From Kordia zhangzhouensis (GTDB taxonomy: Bacteria; Bacteroidota; Bacteroidia; Flavobacteriales; Flavobacteriaceae): a DNA stretch of 64,000 bases. The stretch spans positions 1 through 64,000 of the forward strand of contig NZ_LBMH01000007.1 of NCBI RefSeq assembly GCF_001005305.1, given 5' to 3'. Position numbers and translations under genes: made by a program. Below, one piece after another: positions 4,718 to 13,940 of this stretch (within the stretch, counting starts at the first letter, position 1; every line of letters begins with the position of its first letter). A model generated the notes under the pieces. The model did not search any database. It saw only the letters and a program-made list of their open reading frames with translations, and was not told where the DNA came from.

Positions 4718-6826
4718 TCATTTTTTTACGGCAACATCGGGAGCTGTTAACACACCCCATGTCGCTTTCATTTTAACAATGTGTTTTGTTGCGTTCATCT
4801 GCTCTAAAATATTATTGACCGCATTATACGCAGAATCTAAAGCTCCTACAATCCATCCATGATGAACAGAGCAACACTCTCCTGCTATATTTAATGCTCC
4901 ATCAAATTCAGGAGTTAGCAATGTTGGATATAGATTTTTAAATTGTCCTGGGTTGAATAATGCAAAAGCACCACCACCCGCATGATTGTCCCAATACCAT
5001 GTTTTTGTGGTTACACCATTAGTATATCCTGCAAAATGTTCATAAATATCTATTTCAGGGTACATAAATTGAATTCCTTTCAAGCATTCATTAACACGCT
5101 CTTCATCAGTCAATGTTCCCATACGCTCGGCATCTTGAGCCCAGCAATAAATTTGTAATACACCTTTTTCTGCATCATATCCATACGAAGGATATACAAT
5201 TTGTCTATTAGCGCGATCACTTGCAGAAACACCCAACCCTGTTTCGTATTGACGTTCTCCTAAATTTTTCCAAAATTGTTTATTGAATGTTATGAACGCT
5301 TTAAAAGCTGGCATATAGTTACATTCGCGTAAAGCCCGTGTTTTAGCAAATGATAGGTTTTCAAAAAAGTTAGCATGTTTTTGTCCGTTAAGATAGGCTC
5401 CGTTTGGCAATGTACTGATTACATATGCGTATTCTCGTGTCAATTCATTAACCGTTCCATCTTCTTTTTGATGCTCAATTGTTAATCGCATTCCGCCTTT
5501 ATTATCAAATAATGATGCGTCATATACAGCTTGTGAGACTTTATGATTCATATGAACACGTTTCTTTTCTTCGGAAGGATCATAAGAAGTATTCGCTTCA
5601 TGTTTTGGTTCTGCTTTTGGAACAGATGTTGGCGGTTCTGCGTCTTTCGTTAAGTTTGGTGGAGAATACCCATAGGCATCATTTTTGCCTTTTTCCATTC
5701 CAATAAGCTCTTGCGCAACTTGTCCGTCGTTCATCGTAACTCCTTTTTTAAGATTGAGTACGGTACGACAAGTATCTGGAAAATGCTGCATTCCTTTATC
5801 CATCGTAATCATATAAATGTTTGGATCGGAATAATCATACGAATTTTTACTACCATCCCAGTCATATACCGCAATTACCATTTCAACAAAAGAAACACTG
5901 TACATTCCAGTTCCAACATTCACAGTTTCTAAATAACTTGCTACATTATACGAAAGGTTTTCACAAGGCGCGCCCATCTTAGGGTCGTAATATTCTTCCA
6001 AGTCTGCCAACGTAAATACATTGGTCAAATAGGCCCACATAGAGTAGTTATCATAACGCATCAGCTTCGCAAAACCTGTTTCAAACGATTTGTCAATCGC
6101 CTCCAAAAAAGGACCATTAACTTTGTCTAAAATTACATTGATAGGCAAATATTTATTTCCGTTTTTATCAACCTTTTCTGTTACCCAAACTTCCGGTAAA
6201 TCACCTCCTTGTTGAACTCCAAAGTTTAGCGAGTTCGTAGAAGCATCTTTTGCTAAAATGGGTGCTTTCATATTGTTATATCGTAAGCGTTGATATTCAG
6301 AGTTGTAATAGAATTTTCGCCATCTGAGTAATTGATCTTTCAATCCATTACGTTCTAATACATAATTTAATGATAATGCTAAATGCTGTACAGGCAACAT
6401 ATCGTCTGAGAATTGCGGAATGCGCATACCTCCTACTTCCCCATACAATCCTTTGTTTTCTTTACTTTCTGCATCATACTTAGGAGAATACCAAGTATCA
6501 ATACGGCCTCCTACACGATTTGAAGCTTCAAAAATTTCAAATTCTATACCAAGTGATTGCAAAATTAGTCCAGCATACATCCCTGCAAATCCGCCTCCAA
6601 TAATACCCACTAATGGTTTTGGTTCTTCTGTTGTTGAAACGTCTACTATACGTTCTTTAAGCAATCCGATGCTTTCTGTTTTTCTGCGTTGTTTTTGAAG
6701 TGTTTCTTTATAATCTTCACCATAATTTTCAATAATCCAATCAGAAAAAGCGCGACGAACTGAACTTTTCACTTTTTTGCCTTTGTCGGACGAACGATTT
6801 CCTGGATGAAATGATAAGTAACTCAT
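4718..6826 (-). CDS. Flavin-containing amine oxidase family protein
   Basis: The 702-residue protein has an FAD-binding beta-alpha-beta motif GIIGGGFAG (74-82), the acidic ribose-binding residue Glu100, and the RVGGR motif (104-108) typical of monoamine / L-amino-acid oxidases. The C-terminus has the usual second flavin motif region (IAGECCSVHHGWIVGALDSA). The first 70 residues are a basic, non-hydrophobic extension without a signal peptide, so the enzyme is probably cytoplasmic. The family oxidises amines or amino acids to imines with release of H2O2. The substrate cannot be told from sequence. A long insert around residues 380-440 is rich in Pro, Glu and Lys. The gene is monocistronic, with a clear promoter at 6861-6891 and a terminator at 4647-4676. 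Confidence 0.85.
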   Translation of the reverse strand: MSYLSFHPGNRSSDKGKKVKSSVRRAFSDWIIENYGEDYKETLQKQRRKTESIGLLKERIVDVSTTEEPKPLVGIIGGGFAGMYAGLILQSLGIEFEIFEASNRVGGRIDTWYSPKYDAESKENKGLYGEVGGMRIPQFSDDMLPVQHLALSLNYVLERNGLKDQLLRWRKFYYNSEYQRLRYNNMKAPILAKDASTNSLNFGVQQGGDLPEVWVTEKVDKNGNKYLPINVILDKVNGPFLEAIDKSFETGFAKLMRYDNYSMWAYLTNVFTLADLEEYYDPKMGAPCENLSYNVASYLETVNVGTGMYSVSFVEMVIAVYDWDGSKNSYDYSDPNIYMITMDKGMQHFPDTCRTVLNLKKGVTMNDGQVAQELIGMEKGKNDAYGYSPPNLTKDAEPPTSVPKAEPKHEANTSYDPSEEKKRVHMNHKVSQAVYDASLFDNKGGMRLTIEHQKEDGTVNELTREYAYVISTLPNGAYLNGQKHANFFENLSFAKTRALRECNYMPAFKAFITFNKQFWKNLGERQYETGLGVSASDRANRQIVYPSYGYDAEKGVLQIYCWAQDAERMGTLTDEERVNECLKGIQFMYPEIDIYEHFAGYTNGVTTKTWYWDNHAGGGAFALFNPGQFKNLYPTLLTPEFDGALNIAGECCSVHHGWIVGALDSAYNAVNNILEQMNATKHIVKMKATWGVLTAPDVAVKK

Positions 6827-6891: not shown

Positions 6892-6943
6892 TAGGGATTT
6901 CTACGTGGTTTTTTGATATATAATAACTGAATAATATAATTAA

Positions 6944-6975
6944 AAAAGCGCCAATTCAACCAAATTGACGCTTTT
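6944..6975 (-). terminator. Terminator of the Gly-Gly leader peptide gene (copy A of a repeated hairpin)
   Basis: A 13-base stem with one mismatch (6944-6956 with 6963-6975) and a 6-base loop lies 25 bases past the peptide stop codon. Read on the minus strand it ends in a run of T. A copy with one base difference lies 468 bases away at 7410-7440. Confidence 0.75.
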
Positions 6976-7000
6976 AAAATCCTAAAACTATTTACAGTGT

Positions 7001-7162
7001 TTAGTAATGATCTGGACAACAGAATCCTGCGGCACTACAAGCCCAATTTGGAGGACAATCTGAATCTCTATCACAATAGATCATCACGCCTCCATTGATT
7101 TTTGCTTGTGTTTCTTTAGATAACATTTCTGCATTCTTGATTGTTGAAATTTTGTGTAACAT
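7001..7162 (-). CDS. Cys-rich peptide precursor with Gly-Gly leader (RiPP/bacteriocin-like)
   Basis: A 53-residue reading frame, MLHKISTIKNAEMLSKETQAKINGG followed by a 28-residue core. The leader has the amphipathic, Leu/Ile/Lys-rich shape and the ...ING-G ending of double-glycine leaders cut by C39-peptidase ABC exporters. Bacteroidota natural-product precursors often look like this. The core carries five cysteines at 30, 36, 42, 48 and 49, that is C-x5-C-x5-C-x5-CC, plus two Pro and two aromatic residues near the middle, suggesting disulfides or modified cysteines. The gene has its own terminator (6944-6975), a candidate promoter (7234-7268) and a direct-repeat operator candidate (7266-7296). 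No modifying enzyme or exporter lies in the window, so processing would have to act in trans. The frame and leader are seen directly; the role is inferred. Confidence 0.75.
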   Translation of the reverse strand: MLHKISTIKNAEMLSKETQAKINGGVMIYCDRDSDCPPNWACSAAGFCCPDHY

Positions 7163-7233
7163 ACTGTTTGTTTTTTGATAATTCCTACTCTATTAAAGGC
7201 TTTTCAGATTCCGCCGATTATGAGTCAATGTAG

Positions 7234-7268
7234 GAAATGTATTGTAAGCATTTGCAAGTCCCGACAAA
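7234..7268 (-). promoter_or_regulatory. Candidate promoter of the peptide gene
   Basis: On the minus strand TTTG (7265-7268) is followed after 23 bases by TACATTTC (7234-7241), which differs from TAnnTTTG in the last base only. The spacing is at the long end of the usual range. A weak promoter helped by an activator would fit the direct repeat directly upstream. Confidence 0.35.
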
Positions 7269-7296
7269 GGTTAACACATTTTAGTAAAGGTTGACA
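7266..7296. repeat. Direct repeat AAAGGTTRACA, operator candidate
   Basis: AAAGGTTAACA (7266-7276) and AAAGGTTGACA (7286-7296) are repeated in the same orientation exactly 20 bases apart, about two helical turns. LytTR-family regulators are known to bind direct repeats spaced this way. The proximal copy overlaps the -33 element of the peptide promoter candidate. Confidence 0.45.
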
Positions 7297-7407
7297 TTTT
7301 TTTTAATGCATTGACGGTGAGTTAATTTACTTTTTTGAATTGATTATTTGTTATCCTAAAAATGCTTAGTTTTTCGTTGTGAGCTTCTGTTTTAAACGTA
7401 GAATTAC

Positions 7408-7440
7408 AAAAAAAAGCGCCAATTCAACCGAATTGACGCT
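7408..7440 (-). terminator. Terminator of the topoisomerase IV operon (copy B of the repeated hairpin)
   Basis: A perfect stem (7415-7424 with 7431-7440, one internal mismatch) with a 6-base loop, followed on the minus strand by eight T. It lies about 60 bases beyond the parC stop codon. Confidence 0.75.
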
Positions 7441-7501: not shown

Positions 7502-10132
7502 TTATTCCTCATTAAACAAGCCCATTTGTCCATTATTGGATGTCTCATTCTCTTTTTTAACATCGATGGTTTCCTCATCTACAACTTCCATATCTTCTGC
7601 AGGAACTTCTTTTTCTTCTTCGTAAGGTAATGATTCTAAAATATTAATTTGGCGAACTTTATCTGTTGTTAATTGGTTTCCAAGTGCTTTGATTCCTTTC
7701 ACTGCAATAAATTCTTCCAAGTTAACTTCTAAGTTTGGTTTTTGATCTTTTCCGCGTTGTTTGTAAAAGACCACTTCTGCCATCGGACGCCAATCAGTCA
7801 TAGCCAATTCCAGATGCGATTTTGGATGATCTGTAATAAATTGTTCAACTTTTGAAGGGCTTTCTACCAAGAAACGTTTTACATAGTAGCGTTCTTTTTC
7901 GCCATCATAATAAATTGCAGAAATTGGTTTTTTTGGATTCCATTTTTCCAAAATAATCATGTCATCATCAAAATGAGTCGTTAGTTCAGGAAGAATCGTT
8001 TTCACTTCTCCTTTTTGATTGATTATCAACAATCGGTCTTCGCCTTTAAACGCTCCTAAAAGCTCGCCTCTACCATCAGTATTTAAACGTTGTACAGTAT
8101 CATCAAACCATATTTTTCGTGGTTTGAGTGTAGATATTCCTTTTTCTTTTAATTCTATACGTTTAACAGCATACTTGGTTACTATGTTTCCTTTTACTGC
8201 CCGACCTTTGATTGCCAAATCTGCAAAATCTAAATCCCATTTTAGTTTTTTAATACTTCCTGCTTGGCGTAGTAAAATGGTAACAACTTCTGCTTCTCCA
8301 TTCGGATTGGCCGAAAAGTAGGTAATCATTGATCCTTTTTTTTCTTGAGTTAAATCATATTCTTTGTCACGAGTTACACTTGTTACGGCAAAACGCTTCA
8401 TGTAGCTCGCACCACCTTTTCCGTCACGATAAATCATGTTGTAAATGGTACGCTTGTCTTTTTTCTTGAAAATGGCTACATGAATGATGTTTTTTCCAAT
8501 GAATGTTTTTGCATCTACACGTGTTACTTGCATTTTTCCTTCACGAGTAAATACAATAATATCGTCAATGTCTGAACAATCAGTAACGTATTCATCTTTT
8601 CTAAGAGAAGTTCCAACAAAACCTTCTTCTCTATTTACATAGAGTTTGGTGTTGCGAATGACCACTTTTTTCGCATCTACATCGTCAAAGATTCTAATTT
8701 CTGTATTGCGCTCTTTTCCTGGTCCATATTGTGTTTTAAGACGTGTAAAATAAGAAATTGCATATTCAATAAGATTGTCTAGATGATGATTTACTTCTGC
8801 TATACTGTCTTCTAAAGCTTCAATTTTTTGTTGAGCTTTGTCAATATCAAATTTAGAGATACGTTTAATACGTATTTCCGTTAGTCGTGTAATATCTTCA
8901 ACCGTTACTTCTCGTTTTAGATGCGTAATATGTGGTTTTAGGCCTTCATCAATAGCATTGATAACACCTTCCCAAGTTTCTTCTTCCTCTATTTCGCGAT
9001 AGATTCTATTTTCAATGAAAATTCGTTCCAATGAAGCAAAGTGCCACTGCTCTTGTAATTCAGCTAATTGAATTTCTAACTCTGCTTTTAAAAGATCTAC
9101 GGTATGATCTGTTGAACGGCGCAACATTTCAGAAACACCAATAAAGAGTGGTTTGTTATCATAAATGATACATCCTAAAGGCGAAATAGAACTTTCACAA
9201 TTGGTAAATGCATATAGTGCGTCAATCGTTTTATCAGGAGATATATTGTTTGGTAAATGCACTAAAATTTCAACATCTGCAGCCGTATTGTCTTCAATTT
9301 TTTTGATTTTAATCTTTCCTTTGTCATTTGCTTTAAGGATTGATTCAATCAACGTTGTTGTATTGGTTCCATAAGGAATTTCAGTAATGACTAGCGTATT
9401 TTTGTCTAATTGCGATATTTTTGCTCGAACACGTACTTTTCCACCACGGAGTCCATCATTGTAATTGCTAACATCCATAATTCCTGCAGTAGGAAAGTCA
9501 GGATAAATTTGAAAACGCTTCCCTTGCAGGTGTTTGATTGATGCATCAATCAATTCAATAAAGTTATGAGGCAAAATTTTTGTAGAAAGTCCTACTGCGA
9601 TTCCTTCAGCTCCTTGGGCTAATAATAATGGAAATTTAACAGGAAGATTTACAGGTTCGTTTTTACGACCATCATATGATAGTTGCCATTCTGTAATTTT
9701 AGGACTGTACACAACATCTAGCGCAAACTTTGATAAACGAGCTTCAATATAACGTGAAGCTGCGGCTCTATCACCGGTAAGAATGTTTCCCCAGTTTCCT
9801 TGCGTATCAATCAATAAGTCTTTTTGCCCAATTTGTACCATTGCATCTGCAATACTTGCATCTCCGTGCGGATGGTATTGCATGGTATGTCCTACAATGT
9901 TAGCCACTTTGTTATAACGACCATCATCTAGGTCTTTCATAGAGTGCATGATACGACGTTGAACAGGCTTAAAGCCATCTTCAATAGCAGGGACAGCTCT
10001 CTCTAAAATTACATAAGAGGCATAATCCAAAAACCAGTCTTTGTACATGCCTGTAACTTTAGTTATAGTATCTTGTGTCGTATGTTCTTCTTGCTGATCG
10101 TTTGCGTGCAAATCTTCGTTATGTTCTTCCAT
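7502..10132 (-). CDS. parC: DNA topoisomerase IV subunit A
   Basis: An 876-residue type IIA topoisomerase A subunit. The N-terminal breakage-reunion domain starts with YKDWFLDYASYVILERA and contains the catalytic tyrosine in AAASRYIEARL (Tyr128). An HPHGD segment (88-91 region) lies in the winged-helix domain. The C-terminal part (about 500-850) is a beta-pinwheel-like domain, lacking the canonical GyrA box QRRGGKG, which favours topoisomerase IV over gyrase. The last 30 residues are acidic and low-complexity. It decatenates daughter chromosomes as an A2B2 complex with ParE. The start codon overlaps the stop of the upstream small membrane protein by one base (TAATG), and parE lies just beyond, so the three genes form one operon. 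Confidence 0.93.
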   Translation of the reverse strand: MEEHNEDLHANDQQEEHTTQDTITKVTGMYKDWFLDYASYVILERAVPAIEDGFKPVQRRIMHSMKDLDDGRYNKVANIVGHTMQYHPHGDASIADAMVQIGQKDLLIDTQGNWGNILTGDRAAASRYIEARLSKFALDVVYSPKITEWQLSYDGRKNEPVNLPVKFPLLLAQGAEGIAVGLSTKILPHNFIELIDASIKHLQGKRFQIYPDFPTAGIMDVSNYNDGLRGGKVRVRAKISQLDKNTLVITEIPYGTNTTTLIESILKANDKGKIKIKKIEDNTAADVEILVHLPNNISPDKTIDALYAFTNCESSISPLGCIIYDNKPLFIGVSEMLRRSTDHTVDLLKAELEIQLAELQEQWHFASLERIFIENRIYREIEEEETWEGVINAIDEGLKPHITHLKREVTVEDITRLTEIRIKRISKFDIDKAQQKIEALEDSIAEVNHHLDNLIEYAISYFTRLKTQYGPGKERNTEIRIFDDVDAKKVVIRNTKLYVNREEGFVGTSLRKDEYVTDCSDIDDIIVFTREGKMQVTRVDAKTFIGKNIIHVAIFKKKDKRTIYNMIYRDGKGGASYMKRFAVTSVTRDKEYDLTQEKKGSMITYFSANPNGEAEVVTILLRQAGSIKKLKWDLDFADLAIKGRAVKGNIVTKYAVKRIELKEKGISTLKPRKIWFDDTVQRLNTDGRGELLGAFKGEDRLLIINQKGEVKTILPELTTHFDDDMIILEKWNPKKPISAIYYDGEKERYYVKRFLVESPSKVEQFITDHPKSHLELAMTDWRPMAEVVFYKQRGKDQKPNLEVNLEEFIAVKGIKALGNQLTTDKVRQINILESLPYEEEKEVPAEDMEVVDEETIDVKKENETSNNGQMGLFNEE

Positions 10133-12616: not shown

Positions 12617-13417
12617 TTATTCTGACCAATAACGTAACGTTACAACGATAAATCCATCGTTTCCAACTAAACTTTGATCTAAAGTTACTATTGCGCTTGA
12701 TGCGCCATCAAAATAACCATCATAGGCATCAAAACGATACGTTCCTACTGGTAAGTTTAAAAATGTATCATAGTTGTAATAGTCTGTGTAAAAGATTTCT
12801 CCCGTATCTTGATTGCTTGCTGCATATCCTGGTAGCGTTCCTGCTGGAACAGAAGCGCCAGAACGCTCATCTACTAATTCAATACGTACATTGTATGTTA
12901 CTGCTAAAGATTTTAAATTGGTTGCTTCTATTTTTATTTCTTTCGCTAAAGCAATTTGCGTATTTAATAAACCTCGAATTTCACTGATAAGCCCACGAGC
13001 TTGGTTTGTATTTCCTTGTTCTATAGCCGTTTTTAATGCAGCACTTTTGATTCGTACATAGTCTTCATTTCCTTCTATTGTAGAAGCTTTACTTTGAATA
13101 CTACTCGGATCAATGTTGCTATTTCCTTGTGCTGCTCGTCCGATGTAATAGTTTACTTCATCACTATATTCTTCAACAACTTCCATACTTACATCCATAA
13201 GTTGTAAATAGGTAGTTACATCTGGATTGGGATTGTTATTTACTAAATAATCAACGGTTAATGTTTTTAAAGCAGCTTTCGTTCTTTTTGCTTCTATACG
13301 AATTACTTCCGCCGAATCAAAAACTTCGTCTAAATCATTAATAACAGATTGCTGTGCGCTTATATTTGATATGAAAAGAAATACAAATGCACTTACTACT
13401 AGAGTAATTTTTTTCAT
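12617..13417 (-). CDS. Secreted protein, helical N-terminal half and beta-rich C-terminal domain shared with its neighbour
   Basis: 266 residues, family not recognised. Residues 1-21 are a signal peptide ending SAQQS. Residues about 25-170 are predicted helical and charged, without a known motif. Residues 177-266 (VRIELVDERSG ... TLRYWSE) form a domain found in the next upstream gene with about 64 of 90 identical positions; its alternating hydrophobics, Gly-Thr-Tyr-Arg-Phe-Asp core and YDGYFDG segment suggest a beta-sandwich like transthyretin/carboxypeptidase-regulatory domains. The protein should be periplasmic or surface-located. The gene has its own terminator, and another hairpin separates it from the paralogue, so the two are probably transcribed separately. 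Confidence 0.75.
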   Translation of the reverse strand: MKKITLVVSAFVFLFISNISAQQSVINDLDEVFDSAEVIRIEAKRTKAALKTLTVDYLVNNNPNPDVTTYLQLMDVSMEVVEEYSDEVNYYIGRAAQGNSNIDPSSIQSKASTIEGNEDYVRIKSAALKTAIEQGNTNQARGLISEIRGLLNTQIALAKEIKIEATNLKSLAVTYNVRIELVDERSGASVPAGTLPGYAASNQDTGEIFYTDYYNYDTFLNLPVGTYRFDAYDGYFDGASSAIVTLDQSLVGNDGFIVVTLRYWSE

Positions 13418-13499: not shown

Positions 13500-13940
13500 T
13501 TATTCAGACCAGTAACGAAGTGTTACGACAATGAAACCGTCGTTTCCTTCTAAACTTGAACTTAGTGTAACAACTTCACTTGAAGAGCCATCAAAGTACC
13601 CATCGTACGAATCGAAACGATACGTTCCTGCTGGCAAATCATAAAATTCATTATAATCGTAATAGCCAGGATAATACAATTGGTTAGTATCTAAGTTTCT
13701 AGCTGCATATCCCGGTAATGTTCTAGGATCTACAGGTTGTCCAGAACGCTCATCCACTAGTTCAATACGAACATCAAATGTTTGTGTAACTTTCTTTGCG
13801 CTAACAGCTTCTGATAACATTTCTGAAGCTACAGCAACATCAGTAGTGTTTTGTAGGTTGTTTTTTTGTAACTCTTGTGCTTTTACATTTGCAGTAAATA
13901 CAAATAGTACAGCAATTAGTACATACGATAGTTTTTTCAT
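13500..13940 (-). CDS. Small secreted paralogue of the neighbouring 266-residue protein
   Basis: 146 residues: a signal peptide (1-21, ending VKAQ), a short polar linker (22-55), then the same 90-residue C-terminal domain as the next gene (57-146), ending in the identical TLRYWSE. It lacks the 150-residue helical half of its paralogue. The pair probably arose by tandem duplication followed by loss or gain of the helical part. No enzyme motif is visible. The conserved end is intact and at the very C-terminus, unlike a type IX sorting domain, which has other motifs. Function unknown. Confidence 0.75.
   Translation of the reverse strand: MKKLSYVLIAVLFVFTANVKAQELQKNNLQNTTDVAVASEMLSEAVSAKKVTQTFDVRIELVDERSGQPVDPRTLPGYAARNLDTNQLYYPGYYDYNEFYDLPAGTYRFDSYDGYFDGSSSEVVTLSSSLEGNDGFIVVTLRYWSE

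Follow-up and report, generated by a model that had tools for sequence, protein, structure and literature searches.

A conserved double-glycine-leader peptide gene of Kordia zhangzhouensis and candidate machinery for its export and oxidation in trans

The window analysed here is a stretch of 64,000 nucleotides from Kordia zhangzhouensis (Flavobacteriaceae), located on the contig labelled C41 of the 4.03 Mb genome. It harbors an unlisted peptide gene, whose features and neighbours are collected in Table 1. Translation of the ORF yields the leader MLHKISTIKNAEMLSKETQAKINGG followed by the core VMIYCDRDSDCPPNWACSAAGFCCPDHY, and so confirms the initial annotation, which had described a leader ending in Gly-Gly and a 28-residue core with the pattern C-x5-C-x5-C-x5-CC. 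The window holds 217 ATG ORFs with a length of 30-130 aa, and no other one shows either the Cys pattern or the leader pattern; neither occurred in 5159 ORFs from 20 windows shuffled in three-base units.

Table 1. Features of the peptide locus (window positions) and dyad sites of the same genome.
Feature	Position	Strand	Evidence
Peptide gene, 53 aa + stop	7001..7162	(-)	Orthologues, purifying selection
25-residue leader MLHKISTIKNAEMLSKETQAKINGG, ending ...KINGG, predicted C39 cleavage after GG	7088..7162	(-)	Shared leader; cleavage predicted
28-residue core, C-x5-C-x5-C-x5-CC, predicted cystine-stabilised beta-sheet	7004..7087	(-)	Conserved Cys; model of moderate confidence
Intrinsic terminator of the peptide gene	6944..6975	(-)	14-bp stem; RNA fold z = -6.1
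Second, near-identical terminator hairpin, following parC and setting it apart from the peptide gene	7415..7440	(-)	Scan, RNA fold, hairpin comparison
Upstream region under conservation: GTCAACCTTTA block followed by a 5' leader resembling AATAGAGTAGGAATCATCAAAAAACAAA	about 7163..7295	(-)	Alignment, 9 Kordia orthologues
parC-like gene, topoisomerase IV subunit A; upstream neighbour	7502..10132	(-)	Identity by eye from sequence
Flavin amine oxidase (PF01593); downstream neighbour	4718..6826	(-)	PF01593 match
Dyad TACGGN5CCGTA sites with leader ORF	near middle of L144, L153, L154, L156, L157, L160, L162, L163, L164, L166, L223, L225, L226, L227		Own genome

A search with the window peptide matched all 11 Kordia genomes, paralogues being included among the matches. 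Intact orthologues were identified in nine of the 11, the own genome included, and all nine keep the leader, the GG and all five Cys. Their mean pN/pS is 0.29 (leader 0.31, core 0.28), a set that excludes the decayed copy of genome G008, which has lost the leader and carries Tyr in place of one core Cys. In G003, one of the 11 Kordia genomes searched, only paralogues were detected and an orthologue was not found; absence there and decay in G008 indicate that the gene is dispensable. The closest named records all belong to Kordia: peptide identity is 83% for both K. aestuariivivens and an uncultured Kordia, 79% for K. algicida, 74% for K. jejudonensis, 65% for Kordia sp. TARA_039_SRF and 63% for K. 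periserrulae. The window thus contains a real gene of 53 codons.

The terminator proposed earlier is also supported, as a hairpin stands at the equivalent place 3' of the gene in all nine intact orthologues, two of them with an altered, still pairing stem. The copies after the peptide gene and after parC (6942-6972 and 7410-7440) are 97% identical over 31 nt. Concerning the promoter/operator candidate of the initial annotation, the conservation of a block of approximately 130 bp upstream of all nine orthologues makes a promoter or a 5'-UTR plausible within this region, but a sigma-70 scan remained near chance (5 found against 3.4 expected, both strands) and the dyad of other peptide genes, described below, is missing. 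In front of the window gene stand two AACCTTT words at a distance of 20 bp, and the orthologues do not keep both. parC is found upstream of eight of the nine intact orthologues, own included (tblastn), the ninth lying near a contig end. The amine oxidase adjoins the peptide gene in only one of 12 loci searched with flanks of about 1.5 kb, namely our own.

The leader belongs to a peptide family. An aligned set of 19 orthologues and paralogues served as the query; near-duplicate or decayed peptides (L010, L012, L018) were left out of it, and one of its rows is itself a VKOR-side peptide. It gave 18 matches at E ≤ 0.001 in the own genome, window peptide included, a count that omits four matches above this threshold (22 at E ≤ 10). 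Similar leaders, which the initial annotation had suggested looking for, are therefore present, and their genes are dispersed in the genome. Over the 11 Kordia genomes the family amounts to 254 matches, with 9 to 36 per genome; the leaders agree, while the Cys-rich cores vary in length and Cys spacing. Additionally, 23 of 199 sampled Flavobacteriaceae genomes were peptide-positive, two of them Kordia, and since at most 33 candidates were scored per genome, the peptide counts of this draw are lower bounds. A phylum-wide draw gave 11 positives out of 198 genomes, eight of which fall in the Flavobacteriaceae. The leader is common to peptides encoded beside C39 exporters, as expected of a peptide exported by way of a double-glycine leader. 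No title on the peptide family, or on the C39-like/VKOR fusion presented below, appeared among the matches listed for the open-licence literature.

Several family genes share an upstream element. The dyad TACGGN5CCGTA occurs at 20 sites in the own genome (reversed-pattern control 1) and at 242 sites in the 11 Kordia genomes summed (control 15). In the own genome, 14 of the sites stand 47-61 bp before the start of an ORF with a GG leader (GK in one case); a random-position control gave 36/5000, its slightly different minus-side boundaries making it a rough guide only. Six of these 14 ORFs are of the window-gene leader type and eight are MKKRNLKSL-like, while the remaining six sites have no such ORF. 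From its placement, the dyad probably marks a regulon of secreted peptides in Kordia. As a shared operator for the window gene it was rejected, the best match within 318 bp upstream having four mismatches.

Profile searches of the own genome gave two matches for PF03412 (C39) and one for PF07884 (VKOR), none of them on contig C41, in agreement with the earlier statement that no exporter is near. A fusion of C39-like, VKOR and CxxC parts is encoded on contig C1 (L024 9163-10719), and a GG peptide (L024 8807-8968) ends 194 bp upstream of it. The C39-like part aligns only from profile position 41 and is followed by VKOR and then by a CGYC motif; it is without the N-terminal stretch on which members of the family carry the catalytic Cys. 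Six Cys are invariant in all 14 Kordia fusions (L024 9163-10719, L121-L133), and no column of their C39-like parts has Cys in 80% or more of the sequences. Three of the 14 are second copies, only about 27% identical. The fusion adjoins the same rodA-like gene in 11/11 Kordia genomes, with an ML-type peptide within 3 kb in nine of them, one of these peptides ending in GK and not in GG. Comparison of the fusion with PDB sequences produced nothing significant, the best match being a thioredoxin aligned over the CxxC (E 0.21), and Pfam detected no thioredoxin domain in it; we call it 'thioredoxin-type' on account of the CxxC motif, the position of that motif and this weak PDB match.

Across the sampled Flavobacteriaceae, peptides and machinery tend to go together. 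VKOR was detected in 32 of the 199 Flavobacteriaceae genomes (31 over the cut-off) and C39 in 64. Specifically, VKOR is present in 21 of the 23 peptide-positive genomes versus 11 of the 176 others (Fisher 2e-18; 198 genera, kinship ignored), and in 19/21 versus 11/176 when the two Kordia genomes are left out. C39 co-occurs likewise (21/23 versus 43/176 peptide-negative genomes), which is not independent evidence because the PF03412 model also matches VKOR fusions. Two of the 23 peptide genomes (G038, G079) have neither VKOR nor C39, and 11 VKOR genomes are without detected peptides. Linkage was counted for the 81 peptide matches of the 21 non-Kordia genomes, with C39 exporters taken from a list of frames of at least 700 aa. 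VKOR is encoded within 6 kb of 44 of these peptides and an exporter within 6 kb of 39; for 36 both are that close, and for 34 neither is. In 17 of the 21 genomes at least one peptide lies within 6 kb of VKOR or an exporter. The layout of L203, L204 and L213, for example, is fusion, peptides, C39 exporter and HlyD-like gene; others among the 17 non-Kordia stretches compared are ordered differently or show no exporter, and the ORF rule truncated the start of several exporters.

The sole full C39 exporter of the own genome is located on contig C12 (L023 8058-10265) together with HlyD. The exporter that the initial annotation had proposed to look for therefore exists, and its view of an orphan precursor that could be served in trans stands. 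Exporter and HlyD are convergent to a LanB/LanC-like locus with Cys-rich precursors (L023 1-10265), whose LanB-type dehydratase parts match PF04738 and PF14028. Exporters of this type (93-97% identical) with HlyD occur in 11/11 Kordia genomes, and the stretches analysed around them contain LanB parts in seven of 11 and a lanthipeptide-type precursor in 10 of 11; the exporter may be devoted to this adjoining class I lanthipeptide-type locus. In sequence it stands closer to five exporters of VKOR operons (56-59% identity) than to three further C39 exporters from Kordia (26-27%). Service in trans is possible; yet the exporter is lanthipeptide-linked, the Kordia exporters of its type do not branch within the group of five, and the identity of its HlyD to three VKOR-operon HlyDs reaches only 34-36%, against 54-59% among those three. 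In two other Kordia genomes (L219, L220) a second C39 exporter type was observed beside ORFs of 970 aa and 421-422 aa.

Turning to the core, phmmer against PDB chains ranked squash inhibitors and their engineered relatives first (best E 0.01), pairing Cys30, 36, 42 and 48 with four squash Cys that we take to be Cys II, III, V and VI. Disulfides of squash inhibitors connect Cys I-IV, II-V and III-VI, and from this connectivity the pairs Cys30-Cys42 and Cys36-Cys48 are predicted for the window core. It resembles the squash knottins (PF00299) in the spacing of four Cys, the DSDCP motif and the predicted overlay, but has an extra Cys49 and lacks equivalents of Cys I and IV, and with them the inhibitory loop. 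Four of its five Cys occupy squash positions, short of a six-Cys knot, and the Pfam Squash model scores 20.4 bits against a gathering cut-off of 22. AlphaFold2 (7 sequences) gave a mean pLDDT of 62.8, with 80 for residues 31-40 and 78 for residues 41-50, and placed strands at 40-42 and 47-50. Of 51 Foldseek matches, the first 12 are without exception squash inhibitors or engineered peptides of squash type. Nine of these overlay the core at 0.6-0.8 A across 21-23 columns and three at about 2 A, with E-values from 0.18 to 0.44, none reaching 0.001. Min-23 is described as a designed N-terminal truncation of a squash inhibitor that has two disulfides and folds alone, and the cystine-stabilised beta-sheet as common among small disulfide-rich families (PMC6259850, PMC2659701). 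Convergence is therefore the sober and likely explanation of the squash likeness, the core being predicted to form a two-disulfide cystine-stabilised beta-sheet, as Min-23 does.

Known bacteriocins provide a further comparison. Bacteroidetocin regions, as described in PMC6671954, combine the gene for a GG-leader peptide with one for a peptidase-type ABC transporter and, in most cases, one for a thiol oxidoreductase; their products were proposed as class IIf bacteriocins, synthetic mature peptides kill, and the criteria given include a GG leader of 15-16 aa, a nearby gene for a TM protein, at least two disulfide-bonded Cys and killing of Bacteroidota. Set against that description, the Kordia peptide shares the GG leader, a small Cys-rich core, a peptidase-type ABC exporter and a thiol oxidoreductase, and its uneven number of Cys recurs in bacteroidetocin C (PMC6671954). 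Its leader is longer (25 residues versus 15-16), its core shorter and acidic (28 residues versus 42-48), its gene is unlinked to those of the exporter and the oxidase (contigs C12 and C1), and its candidate oxidase is a C39-like/VKOR/CxxC fusion, in all of which it differs from the bacteroidetocins as there portrayed. On our best reading it would work like a bacteroidetocin but falls outside the definition; as leader length and linked genes do not agree, we do not file it with them.

We consider, with a probability of roughly 70%, that the window gene encodes a leader-cleaved, exported and disulfide-bonded mini-protein served in trans by the C39 exporter and the VKOR fusion. This reading builds on the gene and its conservation, on the leader family, on the presence of both machines in the genome and on the linkage of that family to both in other genera. 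The C39 peptidase ABC transporter with its HlyD-like partner would export the prepeptide and cut it after Gly-Gly, and the membrane VKOR/thioredoxin-type protein would oxidise it, while the N-terminal C39-like domain of the fusion, which has no conserved Cys, may hold the leader. The product would be a 28-residue mini-protein with two disulfides and a spare Cys49 that might serve dimer formation; once outside the cell, it would belong to the dispersed set of secreted peptides. Its role would most likely be competition with, or signalling to, neighbouring cells.

A bacteriocin proper, whose mature peptide would kill related Bacteroidota as bacteroidetocins do, is a serious candidate that we place somewhat short of an even chance. 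The logic of the machinery is that of the bacteroidetocins, whose synthetic peptides are described as killing, and NCBIfam model NF047792 (CCPGW putative bacteriocin), the sole NCBIfam match of the window peptide at E ≤ 10 with no lanthipeptide leader model beside it, spans leader and core (residues 9-49) and matches 7 of the 19 alignment members at E ≤ 0.1. However, this match is weak (19.8 bits against a curated cut-off of 80) and the window peptide is not a member; neither exporter nor oxidase adjoins the gene, no immunity gene was recognised by eye, and the core is acidic in all nine orthologues (K+R minus D+E of -1 to -3) and conserved as strongly as the leader. Membrane-active bacteriocins do not usually have a core that is acidic and so strongly conserved. 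The purifying selection on the core and the parC-side place of eight of the nine orthologues also suit an extracellular signal or developmental peptide, that is, a conserved GG-leader peptide of low diversity sensed by its own species, as do the conserved upstream region of its own and the lack of the dyad of other peptide genes. Such a peptide seems rather unlikely to us, given that no receptor or regulator was recognised by eye in the neighbouring ORFs and that the gene is missing or decayed in two of 11 Kordia genomes. The same losses, together with the unlinked position of the gene, would suit a vestigial orphan that is little expressed or not exported and kept by drift; the low pN/pS, the retention of all Cys and the GG across divergent species, and the conserved hairpin terminator and upstream block render this quite improbable.

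Enzymatic modification, raised by the initial annotation, fared worse than the rest of its proposal: the shape of a GG-leader, bacteriocin-like precursor stands, whereas export and disulfide oxidation fit the data better than a RiPP modification. We regard it as very improbable that the LanB/LanC-like locus on C12 acts in trans on the peptide to make it a lanthipeptide or another enzymatically modified RiPP. This locus does adjoin the C39 exporter and includes Cys-rich precursors, and the class I lanthipeptide precursors of Kordia have in common with the window peptide a GG leader, the genome and possibly the exporter. Their leader differs, however, being lant_leader_L1a-like (NF038153-like; 21.1 bits against a cut-off of 22), and the window core contains two Ser but lacks Thr. 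Four of the nine orthologues carry Ala or Gly at position 34, three of them with a Ser at position 33, and one orthologue has Val in place of Ser43; moreover, the machinery linked to the family in relatives includes VKOR. Radical SAM enzymes, also to be searched for, gave 22 matches (PF04055) in the own genome, and none was tied to the peptide, three matches on one stretch of contig C22 having been examined; methyltransferase-, glycosyltransferase- and deacetylase-like ORFs were seen by eye on the same stretch. The initial annotation had named the lack of a C39 exporter, or of homologues keeping both leader and Cys spacing, as grounds against it; an exporter is present and the homologues keep both, so neither ground applies.

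Extending the reading of an exported, disulfide-bonded mini-protein, we tentatively suggest, with the odds slightly against the complete picture, a system common to the genus Kordia. The 9 to 36 GG-leader genes that lie scattered in each genome would carry interchangeable Cys-rich cores and be served by an in-trans C39 exporter and a leader-reading C39-like/VKOR/thioredoxin-type oxidase, and the window peptide would be a natural bacterial Min-23-like two-disulfide cystine-stabilised beta-sheet. Kordia is a marine genus that includes algicidal members, and its secondary metabolites are described as hardly known (PMC10734526). If the mini-protein reading is right, Kordia carries a large set of secreted disulfide mini-proteins, which could escape cluster-based mining, since their precursors are small and often lie apart from the exporter gene. 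Leader, exporter and oxidase would then be testable together, the candidate TACGGN5CCGTA regulon would offer a search handle, and a possible bacterial route to knottin-like scaffolds would come into view.

Finally, apart from the peptide locus, two adjacent ORFs of the window (12617-13417 and 13500-13940) were seen by eye to have signal-like N-termini and a common C-terminal stretch (VRIELVDERSG...GNDGFIVVTLRYWSE), and are perhaps a tandem duplication.
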